From Nesterenkonia sandarakina (GTDB taxonomy: Bacteria; Actinomycetota; Actinomycetes; Actinomycetales; Micrococcaceae), in the NCBI RefSeq assembly GCF_013410215.1, contig NZ_JACCFQ010000001.1, forward strand, positions 930,001-994,000: DNA of 64,000 nucleotides, written 5' to 3'. A program made the translations under genes and the position numbers. Positions 7,193 to 24,186 of the stretch are shown in pieces; position 1 is the stretch's first letter, and every line of letters starts with the position of its first letter. Under the pieces are notes generated by a model. The model was not told the DNA's origin, made no database searches, and saw only the letters and a list, made by a program, of their open reading frames with translations.

Positions 7193-8503
7193 CTACTGCA
7201 CCTGGGACTCCATCTCGGAATACATGGCCTCTGCCGCATCGGCCGGGCTCATGCGCTGGAAGAGCACCTCATCGTGGTAGCGGTAGAGGATATCGGGGAA
7301 GGTGGAACCACCCATCGCTGGCACCGGTTCGGACTCTCCGAGTTCGCCCTCGATGGAGTCGATGTACTCCGCCACCGCCAGCTGCGGGCCCTCGAGCTCG
7401 GCCGAGATCAATTCGCGCATCTCGGCGTTCGGCGGGATGCCCCGCTCGGCGCGGTCAATCTGAACGGCCTCCTCCGAGTTCACGAAGAAGTCGATGAACT
7501 CCTGGGCCTGCTCCGGATGTTCTGTGCCCGCGCTGGCGGAGAGGAACATCGAGGACTTGTACCAAGGCTCTGCGGCCCCGGGCTCACCGGAGGGGCTGGG
7601 GAAGCGCAGCAGCTCGAGGTCCACCCCGGCAGACTCCGAGATCGCCACTGACTGGTTCGACCACCAGGGGCGCATGGCCACCTCACCGGTGGTGGTCATG
7701 GACTGGTCCGGGCTCACCGCCTGATCCTCCGACATGGCAGAGGCCGGCGGGATGGCGCCGGAGTTCATCAGCTCCAGGAAGAACTCGAAGTAGCTCTGCG
7801 CATCCTCCACACCGAAGCCCAGCTGCCCCTCCTCGCTGCTGAGATGCCCGCCGTGCTGACGCACCCAGGTCTGGAAGCCGCCGGTCTCGTCGAAGTTGCC
7901 CGAGCCCCACGCATCGTCGAGGTTCTCGCCGAGCTCCTGCGAGATTTCGCTGTAGTCCTCCCACGTCCAGGTGGTGTCATCGGGCAGCTCCACCCCGGCC
8001 TCCTCGAAGAGGTTCGGGTTCGCGAGCATGGTGAACGCGTTGATCCCGATGGTGACCCCATAGAGGCCCCCCTCGGTGCGCCCGCTGTCCACCACGGTCT
8101 CCTCGAACTGGGAGACATCAACCTCGCTCAGGTCCAGCAGGGCCCCGCGGTCTGCGTATTCGCGAAGGTAGAGCTCGTCCATCTGGATGATGTCGGGGGC
8201 ATCGTTGCCGGCCGTCTGGGTGGCCAGGGAGTCCCAGTAGCCGTCCCATTCCCGGTAGGTGGGCTCGATGGTGATGTCCGGGTGCTCATCCTCGAATGCG
8301 TCGATGATCTCCTGAGTGTTCTGGTGCCGGGCCTCGGAGCCCCACCAGATGAAGCTCAGCGTGGCCTCTCCGTCCTCGGAGCCCCCCTCCCCGGATCCAC
8401 ATCCGGCGAGCAGGAGAGCGACGGCGCTCAATCCCGCCACGGCGCGTGGCAGCAAGCCGCGCGATCCCCTCCTGTGATGCCCTGCTGTTCGTCTGTGCCC
8501 CAT
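7193..8503 (-). CDS. Family 1 extracellular sugar-binding lipoprotein
   Basis: Solute-binding component (436 aa) of a carbohydrate ABC importer, anchored outside the membrane. The start ATG at 8503 has a GGAGGT site 8 nt upstream. The signal has an Arg-rich n-region, a hydrophobic core and lipobox LLAGC (Cys35), then a Gly/Ser/Glu linker and a MalE-type body (TLSFIWWGSEARHQNTQEII). No permease gene is adjacent. The two orphan permeases at 19529-21431 lack a binding protein, so this is their most likely partner. Sugar unknown. Confidence 0.9.
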   Translation of the reverse strand: MGHRRTAGHHRRGSRGLLPRAVAGLSAVALLLAGCGSGEGGSEDGEATLSFIWWGSEARHQNTQEIIDAFEDEHPDITIEPTYREWDGYWDSLATQTAGNDAPDIIQMDELYLREYADRGALLDLSEVDVSQFEETVVDSGRTEGGLYGVTIGINAFTMLANPNLFEEAGVELPDDTTWTWEDYSEISQELGENLDDAWGSGNFDETGGFQTWVRQHGGHLSSEEGQLGFGVEDAQSYFEFFLELMNSGAIPPASAMSEDQAVSPDQSMTTTGEVAMRPWWSNQSVAISESAGVDLELLRFPSPSGEPGAAEPWYKSSMFLSASAGTEHPEQAQEFIDFFVNSEEAVQIDRAERGIPPNAEMRELISAELEGPQLAVAEYIDSIEGELGESEPVPAMGGSTFPDILYRYHDEVLFQRMSPADAAEAMYSEMESQVQ

Positions 8504-8560
8504 GGGCCTGCACCTCCGCTCATCAGGCGCCCCCCCGTCGGGCACCTCGCAGCTGCTCCC

Positions 8561-8602
8561 GTGATCCGCGAGCTGAGCCCGATGCTACGTGAGCCGGATC
8601 AC
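8561..8602. promoter_or_regulatory. 8-bp inverted repeat upstream of the binding-protein gene
   Basis: GTGATCCG at 8561-8568 and CGGATCAC at 8595-8602 form an inverted repeat with a 26-nt spacer, between the end of the LacI gene (8632) and the start of the binding-protein gene (8503). It could be a weak terminator for the LacI gene or a regulatory site; no T-run follows on the minus strand. Low support beyond the symmetry. Confidence 0.35.
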
Positions 8603-8631
8603 AAGGAAAAGGCTTACCCGGGTCTGGCGGA

Positions 8632-9648
8632 TCAGCGCAGCCGGGTGGAGTCGCGCAGCACCGGCGCGCCCTCGACCACCAGACGGCGATCCATATCCCC
8701 GTCGGCGAGCAGCATCTCGGCGCTCATCCGGCCGATCTCCTCAAGCGGCAGCCGCACCGTGGTGATCGTGGGGTGCTGGTCCGCCAAGGTGGGGATGTCA
8801 TCGAAGCCAGCGAGGGCGATGTCCTCGGGCACTGCGAGCCCGGCAGCACGCACTGCCGCGAGCGCACCGAGCGCCATCACGTCGTTGACGCAGAACACGC
8901 ACAGCGGGCGGCCCGGATCGGCCTGCAGGACGCCGGAGTCGATGAGCTCAGACATCATCAGATACCCGCCGTCGCGTGTGAATGCGCCTTCCATCACCAC
9001 TTCGGGGGCAACGCCCGAGGCGCGGAGCTTGCCCAGGAATCCCGCGGCGCGCTGCGCGGAGGTCGAGAGTGTGGATTCTCCGGAGAGGACCGCGAAACGA
9101 CGATGACCCTGCCGCAGCAGCGCCTCGGCGAGATCAGCCGCCCCGGACTCGTTGGCGATCTGGACTCCCCCTGCATTGGGCAGCGGCTGCCCGATCATCG
9201 CCACGCGACCGCCATTGGCTCGGTAGATCCGCAGCACCTGGTCCAGCAGCGCGTCATCGGAGAGGCCTCGAGTCCCTGCAAGAAGAATCGCATCAGTCCG
9301 ATATGACATGAAGGTACGCACCGCGTCAACCTCAGCCTCGGCCCCACGCTCGGTGGAGGCCAGCATCAGCTGGATTCCCGAGCCCGCCAGCGCGCGCTGG
9401 GCGCCGCGGGCGATGGATGAGAAGTAGGGGTCAGCGATGTCATGGACCACCAGTCCCATCAGGCCTGCGCTCGAGCGGGCCAGGGCCTGCGCCTGTGCGT
9501 TGGGAAAGTAGCCCAGGCGCTCGGCCGCATCCCGCACCCGGGCCGCGATCTCGGGCTTGGGGCTGCGCGCCGAGCCGTTGAGCACGCGGGAGGCGGTGGA
9601 CTGCGAGACCCCCGCCGCGTCGGCAACATCTGCCAGGCGTACCGCCAT
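8632..9648 (-). CDS. LacI-family regulator of the unassigned sugar cluster
   Basis: Repressor of 338 aa with an N-terminal HTH (MAVRLADVADAAGVSQSTAS, then RVLNGSARSPKPEIAARV) and a type I periplasmic-binding effector domain ending AGFDDIPTLADQHPTITTVR. The ATG at 9648 has a GAAGGGAAG site. It is divergent from the catabolic operon that starts at 9803, and an operator-like GGAAAGCGCATTCC sits between them. A nearly identical operator precedes the permease genes at 21.5 kb, so this protein probably controls both units and itself. Inducer unknown. Confidence 0.92.
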   Translation of the reverse strand: MAVRLADVADAAGVSQSTASRVLNGSARSPKPEIAARVRDAAERLGYFPNAQAQALARSSAGLMGLVVHDIADPYFSSIARGAQRALAGSGIQLMLASTERGAEAEVDAVRTFMSYRTDAILLAGTRGLSDDALLDQVLRIYRANGGRVAMIGQPLPNAGGVQIANESGAADLAEALLRQGHRRFAVLSGESTLSTSAQRAAGFLGKLRASGVAPEVVMEGAFTRDGGYLMMSELIDSGVLQADPGRPLCVFCVNDVMALGALAAVRAAGLAVPEDIALAGFDDIPTLADQHPTITTVRLPLEEIGRMSAEMLLADGDMDRRLVVEGAPVLRDSTRLR

Positions 9649-9759
9649 TGCGCTTCCCTTCGATTCTCCCTCGGCGCCGCCGCGGACTCCCGCACCGGAG
9701 TGCGGGCAGCTGGTGGGCCATTGTGACGGTTGACACAGTGCACCCTACGATACTAGCTT

Positions 9760-9773
9760 GGAAAGCGCATTCC
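9760..9773. promoter_or_regulatory. LacI-type operator in the divergent regulator/operon promoter
   Basis: GGAAAGCGCATTCC is a palindrome with one mismatched pair around a central GC, typical of actinobacterial LacI-family operators. It lies between the divergent LacI gene (start 9648) and the oxidoreductase gene (start 9803). Confidence 0.75.
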
Positions 9774-9802
9774 CACGCCTGACGACCAAGGAGTCCCCCA
9801 CA

Positions 9803-10969
9803 ATGTCTGAGCCCCGCGTCCTGCGCATCGCCATGAACGGCATCACCGGCCGAATGGGATACCGCCAGCACCTGCTGCGTTCAATCCTGCCCATCCGTGA
9901 TCAGGGCGGCATCACCCTGGCTGACGGATCCAAGGTCACCGTGGAGCCCATCCTGATCGGACGCAACGAGGCGAAGATCAAGGAGCTCGCCGCCAAGCAT
10001 GACGTGGAGCACTGCAGCACCGACCTCGACGCCGTGATCAATGATCCCTCCGTGGACATCGTCTTCGACGCCTCGATGACCTCGCTGCGCTACGCGACGC
10101 TCTCCAAGGCCATCGGCGCCGGCAAGCACGTCTTCACCGAGAAGCCGACCGCCGAGACTCTGGAAGAGGCCGTGGACCTGGCCCGCCAGGCAAAGGCCGC
10201 GGGCATCACCGCCGGCGTCGTCCACGACAAGCTCTACCTCCCGGGCCTGGTGAAGCTGCGCCGCCTGGTGGAGGAGGGCTTCTTCGGCCGCATCCTCTCG
10301 CTGCGCGGGGAGTTCGGCTACTGGGTCTTCGAGGGCGACCACCAGCCCGCCCAGCGCCCCTCGTGGAACTACCGGCTGGCCGACGGCGGGTCGATGACCA
10401 CCGATATGTACTGCCACTGGAACTACGTGCTCGAGGGCATCATCGGCACGGTCAAGACCGTCACCTCCAAGACCGCCACACATATCCCGCAGCGCTGGGA
10501 CGAGAACGGCGAGGCCTACACCGCGGACGCCGACGACGCCGCCTACGGCATCTTCGATCTCGAGACGCCCCAGGGTGATCAGGTCATCGGCCAGATCAAC
10601 TCCTCCTGGGCCGTGCGCGTCTACCGCGACGAGCTGGTGGAGTTCCAGATCGACGGCACCCACGGCTCCGCGGTGGCTGGGTTGAACAAGTGCGTGGCCC
10701 AGCAGCGCGCCCACACCCCGAAGCCGGTCTGGAACCCGGACCTGCCGGTCACCGAGTCCTTCCGCGACCAGTGGAGCGAGGTCCCTGCCAACGGAGACCT
10801 GGACAACGGCTTCAAGGCGCAGTGGGAGGAGTTCCTGGCCGACGCCGTTGCCGGACGCGAGCACCGCTTCGGTCTGCTCTCCGCTGCCCGCGGCGTCCAG
10901 CTGGCCGAGCTCGGGCTGCAGTCTGCCGCAGAACGCCGCACCCTCGACATCCCGGAGATCACCCTATGA
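9803..10969 (+). CDS. Gfo/Idh/MocA-family oxidoreductase
   Basis: NAD(P)-dependent sugar dehydrogenase-like protein (388 aa). N-terminal Rossmann segment RIAMNGITGRMGYRQHL, and the family EKP motif in GKHVFTEKPTAETL. The start ATG at 9803 has AAGGAG 10 nt upstream and gives MSEPRVLR; a longer in-frame start lacks a ribosome site and would cover the operator. First gene of a tightly coupled five-gene unit: its stop overlaps the next start as ATGA. It probably oxidises a sugar or sugar derivative; substrate unknown. Confidence 0.9.
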   Translation: MSEPRVLRIAMNGITGRMGYRQHLLRSILPIRDQGGITLADGSKVTVEPILIGRNEAKIKELAAKHDVEHCSTDLDAVINDPSVDIVFDASMTSLRYATLSKAIGAGKHVFTEKPTAETLEEAVDLARQAKAAGITAGVVHDKLYLPGLVKLRRLVEEGFFGRILSLRGEFGYWVFEGDHQPAQRPSWNYRLADGGSMTTDMYCHWNYVLEGIIGTVKTVTSKTATHIPQRWDENGEAYTADADDAAYGIFDLETPQGDQVIGQINSSWAVRVYRDELVEFQIDGTHGSAVAGLNKCVAQQRAHTPKPVWNPDLPVTESFRDQWSEVPANGDLDNGFKAQWEEFLADAVAGREHRFGLLSAARGVQLAELGLQSAAERRTLDIPEITL

Positions 10970-12297
10970 GCACCCACAGCCCGGCAGCGGTCACCGACCC
11001 TGAAATCACAGAATCTGAAATCGCCGGCCCTGGAACAAGCGGCCCCGCGACGAGCGACCCCGCACGGCCCTCCACGGGCGCCCTGCCCACGCTGCGCCTG
11101 CCCTCCCCGGAGGGTCAGCTGCTGGACTACACGATGTCCGGTCCCGCCGACTTCGCTCCGCCCAGCACCCCGCTGACCTCCCGGAAGGTCTACGCCGCGG
11201 CACACGTGGTGCCGATGATGTCGGCGGAGAACGTCCCTGGCGCCCCCGCACAGCTGGACTGGGAGGCCACTCTGGCCTACCGGCATGAGCTGTGGTCCTA
11301 CGGGCTCGGCGTCGCCGATGCCATGGACACCGCCCAGCGCGGCATGGGCCTGGACTGGGCCGCGACCAAGGACCTGATCCGCCGTTCGGCCGCCGAGGCC
11401 GCCACCGTGGTGCGCACCCAGCGGCACCCGGCGGTGATCGGCCGCTCGGTGCGGGACCTGATCGCCTGCGGCGCCGGCACCGATCAGCTCGATCCCAGCT
11501 CGGTCGAGCCGGGACCGACGGGTCTGCAGTCCGTGCTCGCCGCCTATCAGGAACAGCTCGCGGTGGTCGAGGACTCTGGGGCGAAGGTCATCCTGATGGC
11601 CTCCCGCGCCCTGGCGAAGGTGGCCAGCGGCCCCGAGGACTACCTCACGGTCTACTCGCAGCTGCTCGATCAGGCTAAGGAGCCGGTGATCCTGCACTGG
11701 CTGGGCACCATGTTCGATCCCGCGCTCACCGGCTACTGGGGCTCCACGGACGTTCCGGCCGCGACGGCCACCTTCCTGAAGCTGATCCGGGACAACGCTG
11801 AGAAGGTCGACGGCGTGAAGGTCTCGCTGCTCGACGCCGCACATGAGAAGCAGCTGCGCGCGGATCTGCCCGAGGGCGTGCGCCTCTACACCGGAGATGA
11901 CTTCAACTATCCGGAGCTAATCCACGGTGAGGACGGCGTCCATTCCGATGCGCTGCTGGGCATCTTCGCGGCGATCTACCCGGCGGCCTCCGCGGCCCTG
12001 CAGGCCTACGACGCCGGTGACCCGGAGCGCGGCCGTCAGATCATGGACTCCACCCGAGCGCTGGGTAAGCACATCTTCGCCGCCCCCACCCTGTACTACA
12101 AGACCGGAATCGCGTTCCTGGCCTGGCTCAACGGCCATCAGAGCGGATTCCAGCTGGTGGGCGGGCTGCATTCCGGACGCTCGCTGACCCACCTGGCGCA
12201 CACCTTCGTGCTCGCCGATCAGGCCGGGCTGCTGCGCGATCCGCAGCTGGCGGCGCAGCGGATGACCGCACTGCTGACGACCGGAGGACTCACATGA
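10966..12297 (+). CDS. DUF993-like (dihydrodipicolinate synthase-like) protein
   Basis: 443-aa protein with a roughly 50-residue Pro/Thr/Ser-rich N-terminal tail, then a body I recognise as DUF993 (VYAAAHVVPMMSAENVPGAP, and later EPVILHWLGTMFDPALTGYW). This family is annotated as TIM-barrel and DHDPS-related, which suggests aldolase or lyase chemistry; no function is established to my knowledge. KVDGVKVSLLDA may hold the barrel lysine, an inference. Both ends overlap neighbours by 4 bases (ATGA), so it is obligately expressed with the oxidoreductase and isomerase genes. Confidence 0.82.
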   Translation: MSTHSPAAVTDPEITESEIAGPGTSGPATSDPARPSTGALPTLRLPSPEGQLLDYTMSGPADFAPPSTPLTSRKVYAAAHVVPMMSAENVPGAPAQLDWEATLAYRHELWSYGLGVADAMDTAQRGMGLDWAATKDLIRRSAAEAATVVRTQRHPAVIGRSVRDLIACGAGTDQLDPSSVEPGPTGLQSVLAAYQEQLAVVEDSGAKVILMASRALAKVASGPEDYLTVYSQLLDQAKEPVILHWLGTMFDPALTGYWGSTDVPAATATFLKLIRDNAEKVDGVKVSLLDAAHEKQLRADLPEGVRLYTGDDFNYPELIHGEDGVHSDALLGIFAAIYPAASAALQAYDAGDPERGRQIMDSTRALGKHIFAAPTLYYKTGIAFLAWLNGHQSGFQLVGGLHSGRSLTHLAHTFVLADQAGLLRDPQLAAQRMTALLTTGGLT

Positions 12298-13205
12298 GCT
12301 TCGAACTCTCGCTGAACACCGGCACGACGCCGAACCTGACTCTGGAGCAGGCAGTCGAGGCGGTGGCCGCCTCCGGGCTCAAGCACATCGGCCCCTGGCG
12401 TCACCTGCTGGAGCAGGCCGGCGGGGCGGAGAAGGCCTCGGCGATCATCGCCGACGCCGGACTCACCGCCAGCACCCTGTGCCGCGGCGGGTTCCTGACC
12501 CCGGCGGACGCAGACGGGCGCCGCGCCGCCCTGGAGTCGAACCGCGCCGCGATCCGTGAGGCGGCGATGATCGGGACGGCCGAGCTGATCATGGTCGTCG
12601 GCGGACTGCCGGCGGCCGCGCACCTCCTCGCTGGCAGCGGCGACGCCGCACAGAAGATGAGCGCGGACAAGGACATCCTCGGAGCTCGGGGACGCGTCGC
12701 CGAGGGCCTGGCCGAGCTGGTCCCCTACGCCGCCGAACATGGGGTCCGGCTGGTCCTGGAGCCGCTGCACCCGATGTACGCCGCGGACCGCGCGGTGCTC
12801 TCCACCCTGGGCGAGGCCCTGGATCTGGCGGCCCCGCACCCGGCCGAGACGGTCGGCGTCGTCGTCGATACCTTCCATGTCTGGTGGGATCCGCAGCTGC
12901 GCGAGATGATCGCCCGCGCCGGTTCCGAGCAGCGCATCGCCAGCTACCAGGTCTGTGACTTCAACCTGCCGCTGGCCGCCGACGCGCTGAAGTCCCGCGG
13001 CATGATGGGCGATGGCTACGTGGACTTCCCCACGATCAGCCGATGGGTGGCGGAAGCGGGTTACACCGGTCCGGTGGAGGTGGAGATCTTCAACCAGGCG
13101 ATCAACGACCAGGACGCCTCCACCACGCTGGAGACCATGACGCAGCGCTATGAGCAGCTGGTGCTGCCCTCCCTGGAACAGGCCCTCGCCCGGACCCCGG
13201 CATGA
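12294..13205 (+). CDS. Sugar phosphate isomerase/epimerase-like TIM-barrel protein
   Basis: AP-endonuclease-2/xylose-isomerase-like protein (303 aa). Visible metal-site motifs include LVLEPLHPMY (Glu), VGVVVDTFHVWWDP (Asp/His), YQVCDFNLP and VEVEIFNQ (C-terminal Glu), as in inosose dehydratases and ketose epimerases. It could isomerise, epimerise or dehydrate the product of the neighbouring Gfo/Idh enzymes. The start overlaps the DUF993 stop and its own stop overlaps the next start, both as ATGA. Confidence 0.88.
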   Translation: MSFELSLNTGTTPNLTLEQAVEAVAASGLKHIGPWRHLLEQAGGAEKASAIIADAGLTASTLCRGGFLTPADADGRRAALESNRAAIREAAMIGTAELIMVVGGLPAAAHLLAGSGDAAQKMSADKDILGARGRVAEGLAELVPYAAEHGVRLVLEPLHPMYAADRAVLSTLGEALDLAAPHPAETVGVVVDTFHVWWDPQLREMIARAGSEQRIASYQVCDFNLPLAADALKSRGMMGDGYVDFPTISRWVAEAGYTGPVEVEIFNQAINDQDASTTLETMTQRYEQLVLPSLEQALARTPA

Positions 13206-15400
13206 GCGCAAATCAGCTGAGCTCGGCCGAGCCGAGGATGGAGAAGGCGAACGCCGAGACGTCGAAAGGCACAGCCTCGAGCGAAGCCGCCCGGACCGTG
13301 GTGCTGATCGGTCTGGACGGCTTCGGCCGTCAGCACCTGCTCAACCTCACCCGGCTCGCTGAGCTGGGCAAGGTGCGACTGATCGCCGGTGTGAGCTTCT
13401 CCGATCCGGGCCCGCAGGTCCGCGGGGACATCCCGGTCTTCGAGACCCTCGCACAGGCCCTGGCCGCGGGCCACCGTCCCGACATCGTGATCGTCTCCAC
13501 CCCGATCAACACGCACAGCGAACTCGCCATCGAGGCGCTGCGCTGCGGCGCCGACGTGCTGCTGGAGAAGCCCCCCACGGCGACGCTGGAGCAGTTCATG
13601 CAGCTGCAGGCAGTCGCCGAGGAAGTCGGCGGACGGGTCCAGGTCGGCTTTCAGTCTCTGGGATCTCATGCGCTTCCCGCGATCAGAGACCTGCTCATCG
13701 GGACTCCGGAGGAGCCCGGGCGCATCGGTCGGCTCCGTGCCGTCGGCGCCACCGGCCAGTGGGTGCGAAGCCTCTCCTACTACCAGCGCTCTCCCTGGGC
13801 CGGACGACGCGAGATGGACGGAGTCCCGGTGGTGGACGGGGTGGTCACCAACCCGCTGGCCCACGCGGTGAAGACTGCGCTGCACATCGCAGGAGCCAAG
13901 ACCCTCGACGACGTGGCCTCGCTGCACACCGAGCTCCATCACGCCCACGACATCGAGGCCGACGACACCTCCCTCGTGGCGCTGCGCACCCGCGGCGGGA
14001 TCCCGGTCACGGCCGCCCTGACACTCTGTGCGGCCCAGCAGCAGGACCCCTGGATCACCATCTCGGGCACCGAGGGCGAGGCGATCTTCTACTACACCCG
14101 CGACGAGCTTGTGATCCGGCCCAACCCGCAGCGACCCGGCCACGCCGAGATCGCGCCGCAGACCTACCAGTTCGAGCGCACCAATCTGCTCGAGAACCTC
14201 ATCGACGTGCAGCTCGGCGCCAGACACGAGGACGGCGCCCCGGTGACCCTGCTCTCCCCGTTGAGCGATCACGGCGCCTTCATGCGGGTGCTCGAAGCCG
14301 TGCGCACCGGGGACGCGCCTGATGGGATCGGCCCTGAGCATGTCCAGTGGGTCGGCGAGGCCCAGGAGGCCCACCCGGTGATCGCGCACATCGAGGACTA
14401 CCTGGCGCGCGCGATCAAGGCGGCACCCTCCAGCTTCTCCTCCTTGGGCGCCCCTTGGGCCGCGGAGCCTGCCGTCGCCGGTGAGCTCAGCGTCGTCCTC
14501 GGCGGGCAGCGCAGGAGAGTCGCGACGCTGCGCACCGGCACGGACATCTCGCCCACCGACTCCCCGCGGCCGTTCCTGGATGAGGTCCGGACCGTGGGCG
14601 CAGTGGTGGTCTCGGACCAGCAGCCGCTGGATCACACCTGGCACCTGGGTGTCGGTGTGGCACTGCAGGACGTCAACGGCACGAACTTCTGGGGCGGACG
14701 GACCTACACCCGTGAGACGGGCCGCTACATCTGGCGCGAGGACCACGGCCGGATCGAGACCACAGATCAGCAGATCCTTGAGACCAGCGCGGGAACCCAG
14801 CTCAGCAGTCAGCTGGTCTGGATCGATCCGTCCGGCACCACACTGCTGCGCGAGCAGCGCGAGATCACGGTCACAGGTCGCCGCATCACCTCGGACGCTG
14901 ATGCCGCCGCTGACCCGGCGGCCGACTCCACCCCGGGCGAGAGCGCCTGGAGCATGGACTTCGCCACCACGCTGGGCAATCCCGGGGAACACGATGTCGC
15001 GCTGGGCAGCCCGGGATCCAACGGGCGGGTCAAGGGCGGCTACGGCGGTTTCTTCTGGCGGCTGCCCGCATTGGGCGCCGCCGAGATCTTCACCGCCGAG
15101 GCACACGGGGAGGACGCCGTGCACGGCAGCCTCACCGAGTGGCTGGCGGTCAGCGCCGAGTTCCGACCTCGGCCCAGCCGTGCGGGCGGCGCCGGGGAAG
15201 CCACCCTGGTGTTCCTCCGCGAGGACGCGAACCCCGACCCGTGGTTCGTCCGCCATGCCTCCTACCCCGGTGTGGGAACGTCCCTGGCCTGGGAGAAGCC
15301 CGTGACCCTGGCCCCGGGCGAGCAGCTGACCCGCCAGGTTCGCGTGCTCGTCCTCGATGGCCGGCTCGATGCAGAACGGGTGGCCCGACATGTCCGTTGA
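13202..15400 (+). CDS. Gfo/Idh oxidoreductase fused to a DUF6807-like domain
   Basis: 732-aa two-domain protein. Residues about 32-400 are a Gfo/Idh enzyme (VVLIGLDGFGRQHLL; ADVLLEKPPTATLEQF). Residues about 420-732 resemble the DUF6807 family, once labelled PmoA (PRPFLDEVRTVGAVVVSDQQ, DHTWHLGVGVALQDVNGTNF, GRIETTDQQILE). DUF6807 proteins are usually separate, so the fusion implies consecutive steps on one substrate. Operon position (ATGA with the isomerase, 11-bp overlap with the M24-like gene) supports a shared carbohydrate pathway. Catalytic role of the C-terminal half is unknown. Confidence 0.82.
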   Translation: MSANQLSSAEPRMEKANAETSKGTASSEAARTVVLIGLDGFGRQHLLNLTRLAELGKVRLIAGVSFSDPGPQVRGDIPVFETLAQALAAGHRPDIVIVSTPINTHSELAIEALRCGADVLLEKPPTATLEQFMQLQAVAEEVGGRVQVGFQSLGSHALPAIRDLLIGTPEEPGRIGRLRAVGATGQWVRSLSYYQRSPWAGRREMDGVPVVDGVVTNPLAHAVKTALHIAGAKTLDDVASLHTELHHAHDIEADDTSLVALRTRGGIPVTAALTLCAAQQQDPWITISGTEGEAIFYYTRDELVIRPNPQRPGHAEIAPQTYQFERTNLLENLIDVQLGARHEDGAPVTLLSPLSDHGAFMRVLEAVRTGDAPDGIGPEHVQWVGEAQEAHPVIAHIEDYLARAIKAAPSSFSSLGAPWAAEPAVAGELSVVLGGQRRRVATLRTGTDISPTDSPRPFLDEVRTVGAVVVSDQQPLDHTWHLGVGVALQDVNGTNFWGGRTYTRETGRYIWREDHGRIETTDQQILETSAGTQLSSQLVWIDPSGTTLLREQREITVTGRRITSDADAAADPAADSTPGESAWSMDFATTLGNPGEHDVALGSPGSNGRVKGGYGGFFWRLPALGAAEIFTAEAHGEDAVHGSLTEWLAVSAEFRPRPSRAGGAGEATLVFLREDANPDPWFVRHASYPGVGTSLAWEKPVTLAPGEQLTRQVRVLVLDGRLDAERVARHVR

Positions 15401-17041: not shown

Positions 17042-17044
17042 TCT

Positions 17045-17080
17045 CGGTGGTCCGCATCGCCGAGGCGGTGCGGACCACCG
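17045..17080. terminator. Stem-loop between convergent genes
   Basis: A perfect 12-bp inverted repeat (17045-17056 with 17069-17080, CGGTGGTCCGCA arm) with a 12-nt loop sits between the universal stress gene and the minus-strand epimerase gene. No clear T-run, so termination is inferred from stem and position. Confidence 0.65.
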
Positions 17081-17088
17081 CCGCACGT

Positions 17089-17994
17089 TCAGTCCCGGAG
17101 CTCGGCCACCAGCTCGGTGCGCCAGGACCGGGTGGGTTCCCAGCCGAGCACCTCTTTCGCCTTACGTATCGAGAACGCCGGTGAGTCACCGATGAGCCCT
17201 CCGGCCAGGTGGGCCAGGGCCGGAAAATGCTCGGGCACCAGCTCGGCCAGCGGCCGGCGCGCCATCGCATCCTTGGCGCCGACGAAGAACACTTCCCCGT
17301 TCCGCACCCGGTCGATGTTCGCCAGCGCGGTCAGCAGGAAGTCCGTGACATCGCGGGCATCGACATAGTTGAACAGCGCTACCGCGGAGAGCGCCGGATC
17401 CTCGAGCCGCTCGGCGATGGTGTGACCCTGCTGGGTCGGTGCACCCGCCCATTCCTCCGGGGCGATCACATAGCAGGGACGGAAGCTGATGAACTTCACG
17501 TCGTCTCTCTGCTGGGCGAACATCGCGGCGACCTGCTCGGCGACATATTTGCTCAACCCATAGGCATGCCAGGGCTGCGGGGTCACGTCCTCGTCCAGGG
17601 GCAGCCGCGGCGGGACCCACCCGGCCGGCGAGCCGTAGCCCATGATCGAGGGGCTCGAGGCGATGATCACTTTCTTCGCCCCGGAGGCCACCGCCGCTGC
17701 CGTGACGCTGTGAGCGATCCCGGCATTGGTCCGCAGGATCACCTCTTCCGGGGCGCTGAAGGGGACCGCGATGGCGGCGAGGGAGACCACGGCTGTGGGC
17801 GTGAGTTCCTCGAACAGCGTCTTGGTGGCCGCTGCGTCAAGCAGGTCGATGCTGCGGTAGCTGACCCCTTCGGCCGGGTCTTCGGGCATCGACCGATCCA
17901 GGCTGAACACGTCGTGGCCCGCCTCCACGAAGCCTGCCACCACGCTGCGGCCGAGTCTCCCGGAGCCTCCGGTGATGATCACCCGCTCAGACAT
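17089..17994 (-). CDS. NAD-dependent epimerase/dehydratase (extended SDR)
   Basis: 301-aa extended SDR enzyme: Rossmann motif VIITGGSGRLGRSVV at the N-terminus and catalytic YGLSKYVAEQ (YxxxK). Such enzymes epimerise, dehydrate or oxidise sugars or nucleotide sugars. Its start overlaps the end of the upstream Gfo/Idh gene by 8 bp, so the two are coupled. Part of the same sugar cluster; substrate unknown. Confidence 0.88.
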   Translation of the reverse strand: MSERVIITGGSGRLGRSVVAGFVEAGHDVFSLDRSMPEDPAEGVSYRSIDLLDAAATKTLFEELTPTAVVSLAAIAVPFSAPEEVILRTNAGIAHSVTAAAVASGAKKVIIASSPSIMGYGSPAGWVPPRLPLDEDVTPQPWHAYGLSKYVAEQVAAMFAQQRDDVKFISFRPCYVIAPEEWAGAPTQQGHTIAERLEDPALSAVALFNYVDARDVTDFLLTALANIDRVRNGEVFFVGAKDAMARRPLAELVPEHFPALAHLAGGLIGDSPAFSIRKAKEVLGWEPTRSWRTELVAELRD

Positions 17995-19390
17995 CAGCTG
18001 CGGCCTCCAGCCCGAGATCCAGATCCGCGACCTTCACCGCATTGCCGGTGGCCAGGGACTCGTTGCCGCAGACTCCCACGGCGATGGCCTGGATCCCATC
18101 GACGAGTCCGGCCGGGCGCTTATAGGGGTCCTCCCCGGCGCCGCGGAAGATGTCCGCCAACAGCAGCCTGTCGCCGCCGCCGTGGGCGCCCTCGCCGTTG
18201 ACGATCTCGATCTCGCGGGCCTCTTCCCAGTGCCGCTGCAGCAGCAGCCGCTCCCCCTTGGCACGCAGGCGGTTGGACTGGGCGTCATCGCTGACCGAGG
18301 GGTCCACCGGGGAGCCTCCGGCGGCGGGCAGCAACGCCGCCCGCTCGATCACCTCCAGCTCAAGTCGGCCCTCGGTGCCGTTGACCGCGACCCGGTAGCC
18401 CTCCCAGGGGCTGTGCGCGTTCAGCGAGTAGTTCAGGATGGCTCCGCGCGAGTAGTCGACCACCAGGGCAAGGTTGTCCTCGATCGTGATCCCGGCGGAG
18501 AAGACGTCCTGGTCCCGGCGATACCCGTCGTGGTGTTCGTTGTTCAGGTACAGCGCCTGCAGGCGTTCATCCGAGCGCAGGTCCAGTGCGAAGGGATCCG
18601 TCTCCGACCCTTCTCGAGTGCCGCGCTCGGCGGCGTCGATGCCGCGCCTGGACGCCGATTCGGCTCCGTAGAACTTCAGCCCCCCGGAGGCGTAGACCCG
18701 CTGCGGGGTGTCCGCAATCCACCAGTTCACCAGGTCGAAGTGGTGACTGGCCTTGTGGATGAGCAGACCCCCGGAGTTCTCCTTGATCCGGTGCCAGCGC
18801 CGGAAGTAGTCGGCACCGTGGACGGTGTCCAGCACCCAGGTGAAGTCCACCGAGGTGACCTCCCCGATGATCCCGTCCTGGATGGCCGCCTTCAGCGCGG
18901 TGTTGCGCGGGGAGTAGCGATAGTTGAAGGTCACGATGACCTCGCGCCCAGTCTCGCGGGCCGTCTCGGCGATCCGGGCGCTGGCCTCGGCGCTGACGGT
19001 CAGCGGCTTCTCCACCACGACGTCAGCGCCTGCGGTGAGCGCCTCGACGATGTAGTCCGCGTGAGTGAAGTCGGGTGTGGTGATGATGACCCGGTCGATG
19101 CCCTCGGCCTGGATGTAGTCGGTGAGCGTCTCCGGCGCAAAGCTGGCCGGGCGCCGGCCCTGCTGGGCCTCCACCTGGTCCTGGTAGTACTGCATCCGCC
19201 CCGGGTTCGTGTCGGCCAGGGCCACCAGCTCGGCCACTTCAGAATGCGGCCCGGCGATGGCGTTGATGTACATCTCACAGCGATTGCCCATCCCGAGGAT
19301 CACGTAGCGGGTGCGTCCTGGCTGCTCCTGGGTCTGCTGCCCTGAGCTGCGTTCTGCGGTGCTGGAGTCTGCTGTGGCTGCTGCGCTCAT
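17987..19390 (-). CDS. Gfo/Idh/MocA-family oxidoreductase
   Basis: 467-aa oxidoreductase with RTRYVILGMGNRCEMYINAI and the EKP motif in DVVVEKPLTVSAEA. A substrate-domain segment GGLLIHKASHHFDLVNWW carries the His residues typical of this family. ATG at 19390 was chosen because AAGGAG lies 9 nt before it; an ATG at 19408 overlaps that ribosome site itself. Third Gfo/Idh domain of the island, coupled to the epimerase gene downstream and separated from the permease genes by a terminator. Confidence 0.9.
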   Translation of the reverse strand: MSAAATADSSTAERSSGQQTQEQPGRTRYVILGMGNRCEMYINAIAGPHSEVAELVALADTNPGRMQYYQDQVEAQQGRRPASFAPETLTDYIQAEGIDRVIITTPDFTHADYIVEALTAGADVVVEKPLTVSAEASARIAETARETGREVIVTFNYRYSPRNTALKAAIQDGIIGEVTSVDFTWVLDTVHGADYFRRWHRIKENSGGLLIHKASHHFDLVNWWIADTPQRVYASGGLKFYGAESASRRGIDAAERGTREGSETDPFALDLRSDERLQALYLNNEHHDGYRRDQDVFSAGITIEDNLALVVDYSRGAILNYSLNAHSPWEGYRVAVNGTEGRLELEVIERAALLPAAGGSPVDPSVSDDAQSNRLRAKGERLLLQRHWEEAREIEIVNGEGAHGGGDRLLLADIFRGAGEDPYKRPAGLVDGIQAIAVGVCGNESLATGNAVKVADLDLGLEAAADV

Positions 19391-19467
19391 GGGGAGCCGC
19401 TCCTTCATGCTGGTGTCGAGGATGGAGGTATCGAGCTGTGCTGGGGAGGTATCAGGGGATCCCAGCG

Positions 19468-19507
19468 AAAAAGCGACCGTCCGCCGTCGTGGACGGGGAC
19501 GGTCGCT
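19468..19507 (-). terminator. Rho-independent terminator after the permease genes
   Basis: Perfect 11-bp stem (19472-19482 with 19497-19507, arm AGCGACCGTCC) followed on the minus strand by TTTTT. It ends the permease transcript before the Gfo/Idh gene. Confidence 0.88.
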
Positions 19508-19528
19508 CCTCGCTGGACCGGCGGAGTC

Positions 19529-20509
19529 CTACTTAATGCCGGTGGTGGCCATGCCCTTGATCAGGAAGCGCTGACCGAAGAGGAAGATCAGGAACAGCGG
19601 CAGGATCGAGACGATCGACATCGCGAACATCCCGCCCCAGTTCGATTCTCCGGTGGAGTCGATGAACGCCGAGAGCGCCAGCGGCACCGTGTACATGTCC
19701 GGTGAGGTCAGGAAGATCAGCTGGCTGAACAGATCGTTCCAGGTCCACATGAAGGTGAAGATGGTGGTGGTCGCCAGCGCCGGGACCATCAGCGGCAGGA
19801 TCACCTGCAGGAAGATCCGGATGTGCCCGGCCCCGTCGATGCGGGCCGCCTCGTCCAGATCCTTGGGGATGCCGCGGATGAACTGGATCATCAGGAAGAT
19901 GAAGAACGCGTCCGTGGCGAGCATCTTCGGCACGATCAGCGGCAGGAAGGTGTTCACCCAGCCGAGGTTCGAGAACAGGATGTACTGGGGAATGATCACC
20001 ACGTGCACCGGCAGCATGATCGTCAGCAGCATCAGCGCGAACATGGGCTTCTTGAACTTGAAGTCCAGCCGCGCAAAGGCGTAGGCCGCCATGGAGCAGG
20101 AGACCAGGTTCGCCAGGATCGAGCCGAAGACCACGATCGCGGAGTTCATCAGGAAGTGGCTGAACGGGTGGCTCAGCGCGTTCCAGCCCTGGACGTAGTT
20201 GTTGAACTCCAGGGTGGTCAGCAGAATGCCGGGTTCACGGAAGATCAGGTCGTTGGGCCGCAGCGAGGAGACCAGCATCCAGAGCAGCGGATAGATCATC
20301 ACCAGCGAAGCCAGGACCATCAGGATGTGCTTGATGACCGCCTTCATCCCGCGCTTGCGCGGAGAGGTGGAGCGCATCGGACGCTTCTCGTTCTTCGAAG
20401 CGCTCGTAGCGGCATCGGCCAGCGAAGATGTCGCGACGGACATCTCCTTCTCAGCACGGGTGTCGGTGATCGCGCCGGACTTGGTGGTGGTGAAAGTGGA
20501 GTCAGTCAT
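19529..20509 (-). CDS. Carbohydrate ABC transporter permease (MalG type)
   Basis: Inner-membrane permease (326 aa) with an approximately 55-residue charged N-terminal tail, then six predicted membrane segments starting HILMVLASLVMIYPLLWMLV. The EAA loop that contacts the ATPase reads DEAARIDGAGHIRIFLQVI. Its start overlaps the end of the companion permease gene by 8 bp. No ATPase gene lies nearby; actinobacteria often share one MsiK-type ATPase among such importers, so that is the likely energiser. Confidence 0.93.
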   Translation of the reverse strand: MTDSTFTTTKSGAITDTRAEKEMSVATSSLADAATSASKNEKRPMRSTSPRKRGMKAVIKHILMVLASLVMIYPLLWMLVSSLRPNDLIFREPGILLTTLEFNNYVQGWNALSHPFSHFLMNSAIVVFGSILANLVSCSMAAYAFARLDFKFKKPMFALMLLTIMLPVHVVIIPQYILFSNLGWVNTFLPLIVPKMLATDAFFIFLMIQFIRGIPKDLDEAARIDGAGHIRIFLQVILPLMVPALATTTIFTFMWTWNDLFSQLIFLTSPDMYTVPLALSAFIDSTGESNWGGMFAMSIVSILPLFLIFLFGQRFLIKGMATTGIK

Positions 20510-21431
20510 CGTAGTGCACCCAATACTTTGAGAGCCAGAAGTTGATTACCGTGATGGCGGAGATGATCAGGACGAGCAACCAGGCCATCGCCGAGGCGTA
20601 GCCCATGTCGAAGCGGTTGAAGCCCTGCTGGTAGAGGTAGAGCGTGTAGAACAGCGTGGAATCTGCTGGACCGCCTGAGCCTCCGGAGACCACGAATGCC
20701 TGCGTGAAGTTCTGGAATGCGCCGATGAGCTGCAGCACCAGGTTGAAGAAGATGATCGGTGTCAGCAGCGGGATGGTGATGGCGAAGAACTGCTTGAACC
20801 TGCTGGCTCCGTCGATGGAGGCAGCCTCGTAGTACATGTCAGGGATCTGTCTCAGCCCAGCGAGGAAGATCACCATCGGGGCGCCGAAGGTCCACACGTG
20901 CAGGATGATCAGCGTAGACAGCGCGGTGTCCGGGCTGGAGACCCAGCCGCGACCTTCGATGCCCACCATCTCCAGGACCTGGTTGATCAGTCCGCTGTGG
21001 CCGAAGATCTGGCGCCAGAGCACTGCGATCGCCACGGAGGATCCAAGCATCGAGGGCAGGTAGAACACCGATCGATAGAACGGCAGGGCCCGCATGCCCC
21101 GATCCAACAGCATCGCGATCGCCAGCGAGACCGCCAGCTGGATCGGTACGCCGACGAAGACATAGGTGAACGTGACCTGGATGGAATTGTGCAGACGATC
21201 GTCACCGATCATCCGGGTGATGTTCTCCATCCCGATCCATTCGGGAGTCTGCAGCAGGTTGTAGTCCGTGAACGCCAGGTACAGCGAGGCCGCCATCGGG
21301 AAGAGCGTGATCCCGAAGAGTCCCAGCGTCCACGGCAGCAGGAACAGATGTCCGGGCTTGTTGTCCTTGTGCTTGCGGCGCTCCCCTTTGGGCGCCTTGC
21401 GGAGCTGCTGGAGCTCGGAGACGACACTCAT
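20502..21431 (-). CDS. Carbohydrate ABC transporter permease (MalF/UgpA type)
   Basis: Membrane permease (309 aa), first true transport gene of the unit. Segments start LFLLPWTLGLFGITLFPMAA; the EAA loop is YEAASIDGASRFKQFFAITI. The ATG at 21431 follows AAAGGTGG and overlaps the stop of a 24-codon leader ORF as ATGA. Longer in-frame readings exist but have no ribosome site. Probably pairs with the MalG-type permease and with the orphan binding protein at 7193-8503. Confidence 0.9.
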   Translation of the reverse strand: MSVVSELQQLRKAPKGERRKHKDNKPGHLFLLPWTLGLFGITLFPMAASLYLAFTDYNLLQTPEWIGMENITRMIGDDRLHNSIQVTFTYVFVGVPIQLAVSLAIAMLLDRGMRALPFYRSVFYLPSMLGSSVAIAVLWRQIFGHSGLINQVLEMVGIEGRGWVSSPDTALSTLIILHVWTFGAPMVIFLAGLRQIPDMYYEAASIDGASRFKQFFAITIPLLTPIIFFNLVLQLIGAFQNFTQAFVVSGGSGGPADSTLFYTLYLYQQGFNRFDMGYASAMAWLLVLIISAITVINFWLSKYWVHYDD

Positions 21432-21502
21432 GGCGCCACCTTTCCGCTCACCTGGGGCGTCATCTGCTGGCGCAGGCCCCTGTGATGTATCTGGGACAGC
21501 AT
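21428..21502 (-). CDS. Probable 24-residue leader ORF coupled to the permease gene
   Basis: ATG at 21502 is preceded by a near-perfect ribosome site AAGGAGG (21508-21514) at 5 nt, stronger than that of the permease. The frame encodes MLSQIHHRGLRQQMTPQVSG followed by KVAP and a stop that overlaps the permease ATG as ATGA. It starts just downstream of the operator at 21527-21540. No known family is recognised. It may simply feed ribosomes to the permease or may act as a regulatory leader. Confidence 0.6.
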   Translation of the reverse strand: MLSQIHHRGLRQQMTPQVSGKVAP

Positions 21503-21526
21503 GGCTGCCTCCTTGCGAGTGAGATG

Positions 21527-21540
21527 GGAAATCGCTTTCC
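21527..21540. promoter_or_regulatory. LacI-type operator in front of the permease genes
   Basis: GGAAATCGCTTTCC matches the 9760-9773 site in its symmetrical positions and is a palindrome with one mismatch. It lies 13 bp upstream of the leader ORF ribosome site, so a bound repressor would block the promoter or early transcription. Confidence 0.75.
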
Positions 21541-21542
21541 AA

Positions 21543-21846
21543 ACGTGGTCCAGACCACCGTAAGATAAGTCACATTGTGAGGTCAAGCACAGGAGAAGCC
21601 CCGAACAAAATCCGGGCCGCCCATCCCGGGCGTCCCGCCAGCTGATCCTCGTGCCGAGAAGAGGGATCCCCGAAAGCGCGGGGCCGCAGGTTGGCAGCGG
21701 AATCTCGTCGAAGATTCGATACCCCTTGGGCATCAATCCATGTTCACGGTGTCTGTGGACCGCATCACAGTTGATGGATAGGCTCGGATGGCCCGACGCC
21801 GGGGGCTTCCCCGCACTACCCCCTCAGAGTCTTCAGGAGGACCAGG
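21543..21846. other. Divergent intergenic region between permease and dehydratase genes
   Basis: About 300 bp without a convincing gene. On the minus strand a TTGACC box (near 21579-21584) and a TATCTT box occur but at poor spacing; TCACA-A-TGTGA is a small palindrome between them. A TCGAA-GA-TTCGA dyad occurs near 21710. The plus-strand gene start has AGGAGG. Promoters must lie here but I cannot place them firmly. Confidence 0.5.
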
Positions 21847-22986
21847 ATGGCCGATAAGAACCCCGCCATAGCAGGGATCGAGTTGCTTCTGGTCTCAATG
21901 CCGTTCAACGCAGGACGGCGGATCAACGGGACAGAATCCGTCGATGAGTACAACGCCTCTTCCCAGACGTTCACCGAGATGGAGTCCCTGATGGTGAAGG
22001 TGACGGACACGGATGGGCGAACGGGTTGGGGAGAGGCCTTCGGACACCGAACCAACCCTGCCTCCTGGGCAGCGCTCGAAGAGGTCGTTGGGCCGTTTTA
22101 TCGTGGCCGCCCAGCCGACCCTTGGACCTCCCGGCACGAAGCGGAATACGCGTTCCACGCATTCGGTCGCACCGGTCCCGTGCACTACGCGCTCTCAGCT
22201 GTGGACACCGCGCTGTGGGACCTCGCAGCCCAGCGTCGCGAACAGCCCCTGCGGAGGCTGCTTTCCGAGTCCGCCAGGGACGAGATCGACTGCTACGCCT
22301 CCCTGGTGCACTACGGCGAAGACCCGGTGGAGGTGGCGCATCACATTGGCCGCGCCCAGGAACAGGGTTATACGGCCTTCAAGCTGCACGAGTCCTCGGT
22401 GGCCGCGATCGCGGCTGCGCGCACCCAAGCCGGGCCCACGGCTGCCCTGATGACCGATGTGAACTGCCGCTGGTCACCAGACGAAGCTGCCCGAGCCATG
22501 GAGGAACTGGAGTCGAGCGATCTGTACTGGATGGAGGAGCCCATCTTCCCCCCGGATGACACCCCGGCCCTGCGATCACTGAATCAGCGATTCGGTCGCA
22601 TCTCTGCCGGCGAGAACGCCTCCGGTGTGCAGGGGATGATCGAAGCCATACGCGCCGGGTCTGTGGCCTACGCCCAGCCCAGTGTGGGAAAGATCGGCGG
22701 GATCTCCGCCATGCTGGAGGTCTTCTCAGCCGGCGCGGAGGCCGGCGTCGCCGTCGTCCCACACTGCTTCTACTACGGGCCTGCGCTTCATGCCTCAGCC
22801 GAGCTGATCGCGACCCTGGACCGGAACGTGCAGCTGGAGGTGCCTTTCCTACAGTGGAACGAACGGCTGCACGCACTGCACGGCGCCGGGCCCCGCGTGA
22901 TCCTCTCCGAGGAACCGGGGTTGGGTTTCCACCCCGATGATGAAATTCTTCACAGACACCTGACCCGCCACGCCACGCTCTCCTGA
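21847..22986 (+). CDS. Enolase-superfamily sugar-acid dehydratase-like enzyme (MR/MLE)
   Basis: 379-aa mandelate racemase/muconate lactonising enzyme family member. Metal ligands are visible in LMTDVNCRW (Asp), WMEEPI (Glu) and SAGENASG (Glu); the general-base Lys is in AFKLHES; the His of the His-Asp dyad is in VVPHCFYYGP. The dyad Asp position reads QPSVGKIGG, i.e. Ser instead of Asp. AGGAGG precedes the ATG. Glycerate kinase starts 30 bp downstream, so a sugar-acid route to glycerate is likely. Specific substrate unknown. Confidence 0.87.
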   Translation: MADKNPAIAGIELLLVSMPFNAGRRINGTESVDEYNASSQTFTEMESLMVKVTDTDGRTGWGEAFGHRTNPASWAALEEVVGPFYRGRPADPWTSRHEAEYAFHAFGRTGPVHYALSAVDTALWDLAAQRREQPLRRLLSESARDEIDCYASLVHYGEDPVEVAHHIGRAQEQGYTAFKLHESSVAAIAAARTQAGPTAALMTDVNCRWSPDEAARAMEELESSDLYWMEEPIFPPDDTPALRSLNQRFGRISAGENASGVQGMIEAIRAGSVAYAQPSVGKIGGISAMLEVFSAGAEAGVAVVPHCFYYGPALHASAELIATLDRNVQLEVPFLQWNERLHALHGAGPRVILSEEPGLGFHPDDEILHRHLTRHATLS

Positions 22987-23016
22987 GGTGGCACGTCAAC
23001 CTGAGAGGCCCTGTCC

Positions 23017-24186
23017 ATGAGCACCACCGCGGATGCCGTGGAGCGCATCGTCTGCGTCCCCGACTCCTTCAAGGGCTCTGCCAGTGCTGCCGAAGCCGCC
23101 GCGGCGCTGGCCCGCGGCGCCCGGCAGGTCTATCCGTCGGCGGAGATCATCGAGCTGCCCTTCGCCGACGGCGGGGAAGGCACGCTCGAGGCGCTGCTGG
23201 CCGCCTGGGGCCGCCCCGCCGAGACCGTCGAGGTCTGCGACGCGCTGGGCCGGCCGGTCACCGCGCAGTACGGACGCTCCGCGGACGGGCGCCGCGGGGT
23301 GATCGAGGCGGCGCAGGGCAATGGGCTGCCCCAGGTCTCCGATGTCGCCCCAGCGCCGCTGCGCGCGGACAGCTTCGGGGTGGGGCTGATCGCCCGCGCC
23401 CTGCTCAAGGACCCAGAATGCACCGAGATCCTGCTCTGCATCGGCGGCTCCGCCAGCACCGACGCCGGGACCGGGCTGCTGCGCGCCCTGGGCGCAGAGT
23501 TCCTCGACGCCGCGGGTGAACCGGTGCCCCCTGGCGGTGCCGGTCTGGGGAGGATCAGCACCGTGGATCTCACCGGCCTGGATCCCAGAGCCCACCAGGT
23601 GAGCTGGCGGATCGCGGTGGACGTGGAGAATCCGCTCACCGGCGAGCGCGGTGCCGCGGCGGTGTTCGGACCACAGAAGGGCGCGACGACGCAGGATGTC
23701 CAGCTCCTGGACCAGGGTCTGCGTCACCTGGCCGAGACGCTGGGGGCCCACGCCGGTGATGATCCCCAGCAGCTGTGTGAGACCCCTGGATTCGGCGCCG
23801 CCGGGGGAATGCCGCTGACCATGGCGGTGCTGCTGGGCGCAGAGATCCTGCCCGGCGCCCAGATGGTCGCCGAGGCGTTGGACCTGGAGCAGACCCTCGC
23901 CGAGGCGGATCTGGTGATCACCGGGGAGGGCTCACTGGATGCCCAGTCCCTGGGCGGCAAGGTGGTCCAGGCGGTGCGCCGGTATGCCCCCCGCGAGGCG
24001 GCGGTGCTCGTGATCGCCGGCGCGGTCCAGCTCAGCGCGGAGCAGTGCCGAGCCGCCGGGCTGACCGCAGCGTTCTCGATCGCCCCGGGAGCGGCCTCGC
24101 TGCAGGACCTGCTGCACCGGGCGCCGGAGCTCATCGAGGACACCGCCGCCCAGGCCTGCGGGCTGCTGCGGCACAGCCGCCCCTGA
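23017..24186 (+). CDS. Glycerate kinase
   Basis: 389-aa glycerate kinase of the GarK/GlxK family that phosphorylates D-glycerate with ATP, feeding lower glycolysis. Family signatures: VCVPDSFKGSASAAEAAAAL at the N-terminus, LPFADGGEGTLEALL, GGSASTDAGTGLLRALG, and ITGEGSLDAQSLGGKV. Probably co-transcribed with the enolase-superfamily gene. It suggests the preceding pathway releases glycerate or tartronate semialdehyde. Confidence 0.95.
   Translation: MSTTADAVERIVCVPDSFKGSASAAEAAAALARGARQVYPSAEIIELPFADGGEGTLEALLAAWGRPAETVEVCDALGRPVTAQYGRSADGRRGVIEAAQGNGLPQVSDVAPAPLRADSFGVGLIARALLKDPECTEILLCIGGSASTDAGTGLLRALGAEFLDAAGEPVPPGGAGLGRISTVDLTGLDPRAHQVSWRIAVDVENPLTGERGAAAVFGPQKGATTQDVQLLDQGLRHLAETLGAHAGDDPQQLCETPGFGAAGGMPLTMAVLLGAEILPGAQMVAEALDLEQTLAEADLVITGEGSLDAQSLGGKVVQAVRRYAPREAAVLVIAGAVQLSAEQCRAAGLTAAFSIAPGAASLQDLLHRAPELIEDTAAQACGLLRHSRP

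Follow-up and report, generated by a model that had tools for sequence, protein, structure and literature searches.

A putative LacI-type regulon around a DUF993 protein in Nesterenkonia sandarakina, with a possible route from keto-sugar cleavage to glycerate

A cluster of sugar-related genes built around a DUF993 protein occupies positions 7193-24186 of the window analysed here, a stretch of 64,000 nucleotides from Nesterenkonia sandarakina (assembly GCF_013410215.1, 3.02 Mb in 2 contigs; contig NZ_JACCFQ010000001.1, positions 930,001 to 994,000). We are highly confident that the cluster forms one co-regulated catabolic unit, and consider it likely that its glycerate kinase (GK) is the pathway exit. 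The explanation that best accounts for the whole, which we hold with about even confidence, is a regulon under LacI-type control for the catabolism of a sugar or sugar acid, with cleavage of a keto-sugar and exit at glycerate. An earlier sequence-only reading had listed the gene families of the cluster, and Pfam confirms each of them, the three Gfo/Idh domains included.

Two arms and a shared predicted operator

The first arm, on the + strand, opens with three enzymes that we call the core: GfoA, a Gfo/Idh/MocA oxidoreductase (9803..10969, start approximate), the DUF993 protein (PF06187; 10966..12297; 580.5 bits against a Pfam cut-off of 24) and a TIM barrel of family PF01261 resembling isomerases and epimerases (TIM; 12294..13205). 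These are followed by GfoB fused to DUF6807 (PF14100; 13202..15400; 203 bits for DUF6807, cut-off 27) and an M24-like protein (about 15390..16556; 35 bits, cut-off 23). ATGA start/stop overlaps join GfoA, DUF993, TIM and GfoB-DUF6807, and the M24-like gene begins 11 bases ahead of the end of the fusion gene, so that the + strand genes from GfoA through M24 look translationally coupled. The second arm, on the - strand, holds the ABC permeases PermB (20502..21431) and PermA (19529..20509), the oxidoreductase GfoC (17987..19408) and an NAD-dependent epimerase/dehydratase of the SDR type (17089..17994), all assigned by Pfam; on the far side, also on the - strand, lie the gene for the transporter's substrate-binding protein (SBP; SBP_bac_1, 7193..8545, E 3e-28) and that for the LacI-family regulator LacI2 (8632..9648). 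Divergent from PermB, an enolase-superfamily (MR/MLE) gene (21847..22986, PF13378 and PF02746) and then the GK gene (23017..24186; TIGR00045 375 bits, cut-off 168) stand on the + strand. The longest open reading frame of PermB reaches 21542; its first in-frame ATG, at 21431, gives 309 aa, and the counterparts in loci L005 and L006 have 308 aa (loci and genomes are cited here by L and G numbers). A start at 21502 is out of frame and was rejected.

The operator search used the pattern GGAAANCGNWTTCC. Perfect matches occur at exactly two places in the whole genome, upstream of GfoA (GGAAAGCGCATTCC, 9760..9773) and about 100 bases upstream of PermB (GGAAATCGCTTTCC, 21527..21540), and a degenerate copy with 2 mismatches lies upstream of the SBP gene (8605..8618). 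At up to 1 mismatch the whole genome holds 4 forward and 7 reverse matches, against 2 and 3 for the pattern read backward as a control; at up to 2 mismatches the window holds 18 (a palindrome, counted on both strands) against 4.4 expected, the largest shuffle giving 14. Both arms would accordingly be described as one putative regulon under a shared predicted LacI-type operator. The single catabolic unit of the sequence-only reading is borne out by this sharing, where separate regulation of the arms might have been found, and by the conserved co-occurrence described below. A further LacI-operator-like site with 2 mismatches, GGGAATCGCTTCCC at 37726-37739, lies between open reading frames ending at 37535 and starting at 38192.

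The predicted operator recurs in relatives. Our set of loci comprises the best 80 of at least 587 confirmed DUF993 relatives and is biased toward close kin; 79 of them carry GfoA, and the survey upstream of GfoA ran on those 79, finding the operator (up to 1 mismatch) in 39. It accompanies LacI2 relatives of at least 42% identity, L070 and L071 excepted, and is absent where LacI identity is 37% or lower, L057 excepted. It also occurs near the SBP gene (0-1 mismatch in L004, L005 and L006, 2 in L003) and near PermB (0-2 mismatches in L005, L006, L023 and L074), and 68 of the 80 loci have a LacI2 homologue no more than 3.5 kb from DUF993. All 20 relatives that were fetched have the operator upstream of GfoA, 14 of them in perfect form, and a perfect copy precedes PermB in L126, L127, L129 and L131, the four with a close PermB start inside the stretch. 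A genus-wide scan found perfect operators in 16 of 30 genomes.

A conserved core and an optional module

In 77 of the 80 loci DUF993 stands immediately between GfoA on its upstream side and TIM on its downstream side (the exceptions are L037, L044 and L047), and TIM adjoins DUF993 in 78. Judged by gene order, the minimal recurring unit is GfoA-DUF993-TIM, together with GK in compact genomes. The whole set except GK is found together in Arthrobacter sp. MYb229 and MYb213 (L005 and L006) as well, and an SBP counterpart stands beside LacI2 in L003-L006.

Within the genus we counted DUF993 at 76% identity or more, GfoC at 73% or more, LacI2 orthologues at E 1e-90 and enolase relatives at E 1e-60, which gave 13, 11, 9 and 10 of 30 genomes, respectively. 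The genomes with LacI2 are a subset of those with the enolase, and these of those with GfoC; all 10 with the enolase also have DUF993. Presence and absence of LacI2, GfoC and the enolase are nearly joint (Fisher p 4e-7 to 4e-6, uncorrected for phylogeny). Below the counting thresholds there are further DUF993 copies of 52-54% identity in three genomes and GfoC copies of 57-59% in G406, G416 and G424, that of the compact genome G416 (57%) lying elsewhere in the genome. The sequence-only reading had proposed a genome-neighbourhood comparison for co-occurrence; both the triad across the loci and the linked genes across the genus come out in favour of its unit, the genes being grouped beyond what chance would give.

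Three compact same-genus genomes, with DUF993 91-92% identical to ours, show the order AraB-LacI1, GfoA-DUF993-TIM-(UspA)-GK, SurA, and at this locus lack genes for the transporter, GfoB-DUF6807, GfoC, the epimerase and the enolase. Because they keep the triad and GK without them, these genes look like an optional module. The window looks like a compact locus with three insertions (SBP-LacI2, GfoB/DUF6807-M24 and epimerase-GfoC-permeases-enolase), or else the compact form lost these together. UspA relatives lie between TIM and GK in two of the compact loci, L124 and L125; in the window the UspA gene (PF00582, 16610-17041, E 1e-24) lies between the two arms. In the compact loci (L123-L125) the triad adjoins L-arabinose genes (AraB, LacI1), which makes a link to pentoses possible; in Paenarthrobacter (L008, L012) it adjoins such genes too, arranged differently. 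Possible decay or assembly error affects G404 (L136), where DUF993 is in two pieces, and G421, where the GfoC frame has stops.

These data also bear on whether independent operons simply adjoin here, the triad and the transporter arm serving different substrates. Most of the 80 loci do have the triad without the remaining genes, and in G399 GfoC and the enolase are on another contig; but the operator is common to both arms in several species, gain and loss are linked, and L005 and L006 hold nearly the whole set together, all of which makes independence highly improbable in our view.

The DUF993 active site and its proposed reaction

The likeness of DUF993 to dihydrodipicolinate synthase (DHDPS), noted in the sequence-only reading, holds at the level of fold: the protein has a TIM barrel with further C-terminal helices. 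It shares both, and the position of the strand-6 lysine, with the DHDPS/N-acetylneuraminate lyase family (PF00701), but it belongs to a separate Pfam family and has DTAQR for GTTGE and, judged by strand position, His-Trp where the tyrosine would be. It has no PF00701 match, PF06187 being its sole Pfam listing at E up to 5. The active site was read from a local hhalign profile alignment with six DHDPS sequences; a global run aligned 11 columns only, and the local run was used instead. Lys250 (numbered from base 11071), invariant in two DUF993 alignments (29/29 and 17/17), aligns with the DHDPS Schiff-base lysine on strand 6 (E 1.5e-4, probability 52%). The GTTGE motif (G-T/S-T-G-E) of DHDPS-type enzymes binds the carboxylate of the alpha-keto acid; at its position DUF993 has an invariant DTAQR. 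At the spot of DHDPS Tyr133, placed by strand position where the profile alignment is gapped, DUF993 reads PVILHWLG with an invariant His-Trp, and neither alignment has a tyrosine at residues 205-216, so the catalytic tyrosine is apparently missing. Since the GTTGE motif is lost, the tyrosine apparently so, and Lys250 is kept, DUF993 would be a lyase for a ketone that does not adjoin a carboxylate. That it is a Schiff-base C-C lyase seems somewhat more probable than otherwise, and we think that its substrate is a keto-sugar with the ketone away from any carboxylate.

The same evidence bears on the reaction order of the sequence-only reading, in which the enolase-superfamily protein makes a 2-keto-3-deoxy acid by dehydrating a sugar acid, and DUF993 cleaves this product in the manner of KDG aldolase. 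The DHDPS fold agrees with that order, as do the enolase-superfamily genes in the DUF993 clusters of Sinorhizobium meliloti, Chelatococcus, Paroceanicella and Nitratireductor. But the carboxylate motif is replaced in DUF993, the core is kept in the three compact genomes without an enolase relative (E 1e-60), three of these proteobacterial enolases (462-471 aa) have no match to that of the window at E 1e-5, and the KdgD-like gene near the enolase in L074 encodes a separate protein. We regard a deoxy-keto acid substrate, and dehydration ahead of DUF993 cleavage, as very improbable.

In the scheme that we favour, the ABC transporter would import a sugar or sugar-like substrate, which GfoC, GfoB-DUF6807 and the epimerase would turn into the form used by the core. 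GfoA would then turn a secondary alcohol group into a ketone by oxidation, giving a keto-sugar for the TIM barrel to epimerise or isomerise, and DUF993 would form a Schiff base through Lys250 and break a C-C bond by retro-aldol cleavage, the ketone not being beside a carboxylate. A C3 fragment, either glyceraldehyde or tartronate semialdehyde, would be converted to glycerate and enter glycolysis through GK; the enolase would act on a side or alternative substrate. One fitting candidate would be a 5-keto-hexonate (a keto-aldonate), yielding dihydroxyacetone and tartronate semialdehyde; another would be a ketose, yielding dihydroxyacetone and glyceraldehyde, which an aldehyde dehydrogenase such as AldH of plasmid pAO1 might oxidise.

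More tentatively, DUF993 may be a DHDPS-fold Schiff-base lyase for substrates other than alpha-keto acids, and the triad with GK an undescribed non-phosphorylated sugar pathway of Actinomycetota, Pseudomonadota and Bacillota. It would, to our knowledge, be the first Schiff-base lyase of this fold to do so; if true, this would widen the range of reactions of an enzyme fold that is among the best studied, and add a new route from sugar to glycerate without sugar phosphates. The generically named Protein Data Bank (PDB) entries 3OQB, 4DNH (the DUF993 protein of S. meliloti) and 3JU2/3QC0/7VPF are relatives of the three enzymes of this one conserved operon, so that their functions could be solved together. 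Having a compact and an expanded form of the locus in the same genus allows core and feeder enzymes to be told apart cleanly.

Distant relatives, known systems and rival routes

Of 396 genomes sampled from the phylum, our own among them, 29 contain PF06187; none of 14 control genomes does. The window DUF993 matches 147 of 72,556 plasmid records by tblastn, from which 21 loci were picked for having an annotated match (L178, unannotated, was left out). These carry sugar phosphate isomerases/epimerases (14 loci), Gfo proteins (13), GK (10), CoA-transferases (7), SDRs of the 3-ketoacyl-ACP reductase type (5) and GMC oxidoreductases (5). We estimate that, in a genome of 3-5 Mb carrying one or two GK genes, about 1% of 17-19 kb stretches would contain one; against this, 10 of 21 makes the link to GK look strong, although the loci are not independent. 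In four same-genus genomes, moreover, GK is the first sugar gene detected beyond TIM, and the step from glycerate to glycolysis in the sequence-only reading gains from both observations. The presence of GK alone is not diagnostic; its adjacency to the triad is.

We also scanned neighbours among actinobacterial and other loci, taking 102 open reading frames, chosen mostly by length out of 187 candidates, from 25 loci (26 chosen, L082 dropped). The simple calling lets antisense frames in, and two larger groups judged antisense by position were set aside. The neighbours varied (ABC, CUT2-type, extra Gfo, extra TIM, GH42, PfkB, NMT1).

Two known clusters resemble ours. That of S. meliloti (L090) likewise unites GfoA, DUF993 (SMc04132, by structure names), TIM (SMc04130), an enolase-superfamily gene, a GfoC-like Gfo, an SBP and permeases; the window SBP is 32% identical to its SBP, and GfoC 38% to its Gfo3. 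It differs in having a TetR rather than a LacI regulator and an enolase not close to that of the window, and its annotated stretch contains neither DUF6807 nor M24. Five SMc0413x proteins change in concert in a published proteome. The carbohydrate cluster of pAO1 in Paenarthrobacter nicotinovorans has relatives of GfoA (83%) and DUF993 (69%) with GK adjoining, but the stretch has no TIM barrel and includes a GMC oxidoreductase and AldH. The title of a 2013 paper reportedly ties pAO1 to oxidative xylose catabolism; no enzymology of the DUF993 cluster was found in the accessible parts of the pAO1 literature.

Several observations weigh against the regulon and the chemistry that we favour. On the side of regulation, 40 of the 79 loci have no operator upstream of GfoA, the sites of LacI-family regulators resemble one another, and G403 and G419 have LacI2, GfoC and the enolase but no perfect operator on the PermB side. 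The compact genomes G407, G413 and G416, and also G399, keep the GfoA operator with no LacI2 orthologue found at E 1e-90, so the cognate regulator is uncertain; another LacI must use the site there, and in the three compact genomes this may be the divergent LacI1. On the side of chemistry, the active-site reading leans on a profile alignment that is weak by its hhalign probability, GK was detected in only 4 of the 80 loci and occurs in 29 of the 30 same-genus genomes whether DUF993 is present or not, and neither an aldehyde dehydrogenase nor a semialdehyde reductase was seen among the cluster genes. The carbohydrate link of DUF993 assumed in the sequence-only reading stands in most of the contexts seen, though not in all: in Streptomyces sp. 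NBC_00557 a DUF993 copy (45%; L174, 8019-9206) adjoins a polyketide synthase, in a stretch with no sugar gene annotated. Finally, five of the seven plasmid loci with a CoA-transferase also have an enoyl-CoA hydratase, neighbours that a plain retro-aldol cleavage leaves unexplained; the CoA-transferase loci in Pseudomonadota are L168-L172, L175 and L094.

Such neighbours would suit a beta-keto-acid route. This would start with GfoA (in proteobacteria an SDR) oxidising a sugar acid at C3, after which DUF993 would release glycerate or glyceryl-CoA from the 3-keto acid by cleavage or decarboxylation. The CoA-transferase and GK counts above favour it, as does the SDR, which adjoins DUF993 or lies within a few genes of it in its five loci, and the loss of the alpha-keto-acid motif is consistent with it too. 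The published account of oxidative deoxyribonate pathways, as far as available, has keto-acid oxidation, C-C cleavage and an exit through GK, which is important in that catabolism with its proposed 3-keto-acid cleavage (PMC6365646); our cluster is proposed to share these three features, but the account has a beta-keto acid cleavage enzyme or a thiolase do the cleaving, and its main text does not contain the word 'dihydrodipicolinate'. CoA genes were not seen among the window cluster genes, the route leaves the TIM-barrel isomerase unexplained, and a sugar-type transporter and LacI point to sugars. We think this route unlikely.

A levoglucosan-like formal hydrolysis would have Gfo proteins make a 3-keto-glycoside and another Gfo later reduce 3-ketoglucose, with beta-elimination by TIM and water addition between, and DUF993 as an auxiliary hydratase/lyase. 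The characterised Lgd pathway (LgdA, B1, B2, C) uses the families present here, namely Gfo/Idh oxidoreductases, a PF01261 TIM barrel, an ABC transporter and LacI, but ends in glucose, and the accessible parts of its description do not mention DUF993, DUF6807 or GK (PMC7676230, PMC10066097). Our cluster has three Gfo proteins and a mutarotase-like DUF6807, and GH3 genes occur in some Streptomyces loci; on the other side, the levoglucosan dehydrogenase equivalog of NCBIfam (cut-off 650 bits) is not reached by GfoA (74), GfoB (24) or GfoC (61), and in the compact locus just one Gfo was detected, with GK following. Literature searches for 3-ketoglucose with aldolase and for 3-keto with Gfo found nothing. 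A levoglucosan-like role is quite unlikely, in our judgement. Searches of the accessible literature for 'DUF993' found no mention, and those for DUF6807, PF14100, PF06187 and the PDB codes of the core-enzyme matches found nothing relevant.

Accessory enzymes and flanking genes

All three Gfo proteins exceed the Pfam Gfo/Idh/MocA cut-offs and have the EKP motif. The best PDB match of GfoA is 3OQB (E 4e-129), titled only 'Oxidoreductase'; TIM matches 7VPF, 3QC0 and 3JU2 and, at 39 bits, does not reach the equivalog of the 5-keto-L-gluconate epimerase IolO (cut-off 300). GfoB and DUF6807 are separate adjoining genes in L036 and L074. DUF6807 proteins carry a PmoA label, whose methane-oxygenase sense we reject here, since the beta fold looks mutarotase-like. 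For the epimerase, 2PZK is the best PDB match (E 1e-10); identity as uronate dehydrogenase was rejected, as 3RFT (E 6e-7) falls behind entries resembling UDP-glucose epimerase. The enolase-superfamily protein lies below all listed NCBIfam equivalog cut-offs (best TalGalacDh, 131.6 against 500), for which reason a named sugar-acid dehydratase identity was rejected; it is possibly an accessory sugar-acid dehydratase.

Four items go beyond the gene list of the sequence-only reading: the M24-like protein, UspA, a second LacI and an L-arabinose operon. The M24-like protein has apparently lost the M24 metal ligands, the stretches where they would be expected reading CARRGGLIANVTRW and NP in a sequence alignment of 5, and a PDB sequence search with it found nothing at E 0.001. 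The proteins of the window and L003-L006 share a new invariant pattern (CxRR, GLIANVTRWV, HHQGG, GRDPR), and a new activity is possible. The L-arabinose operon (527-5862) flanks the cluster with its own LacI (LacI1, 5932-7239), both assigned by Pfam. KdgD-like proteins of the DHDPS family lie near enolase-superfamily genes in L074 (6141-8137) and L173, and one is encoded at 902199-903062 in our own genome (L100), about 27-28 kb before the window, where it may mark a separate sugar-acid pathway. Over the permease genes (20001-22000) the G+C fraction drops to 0.604, from about 0.66-0.70 in the surroundings.

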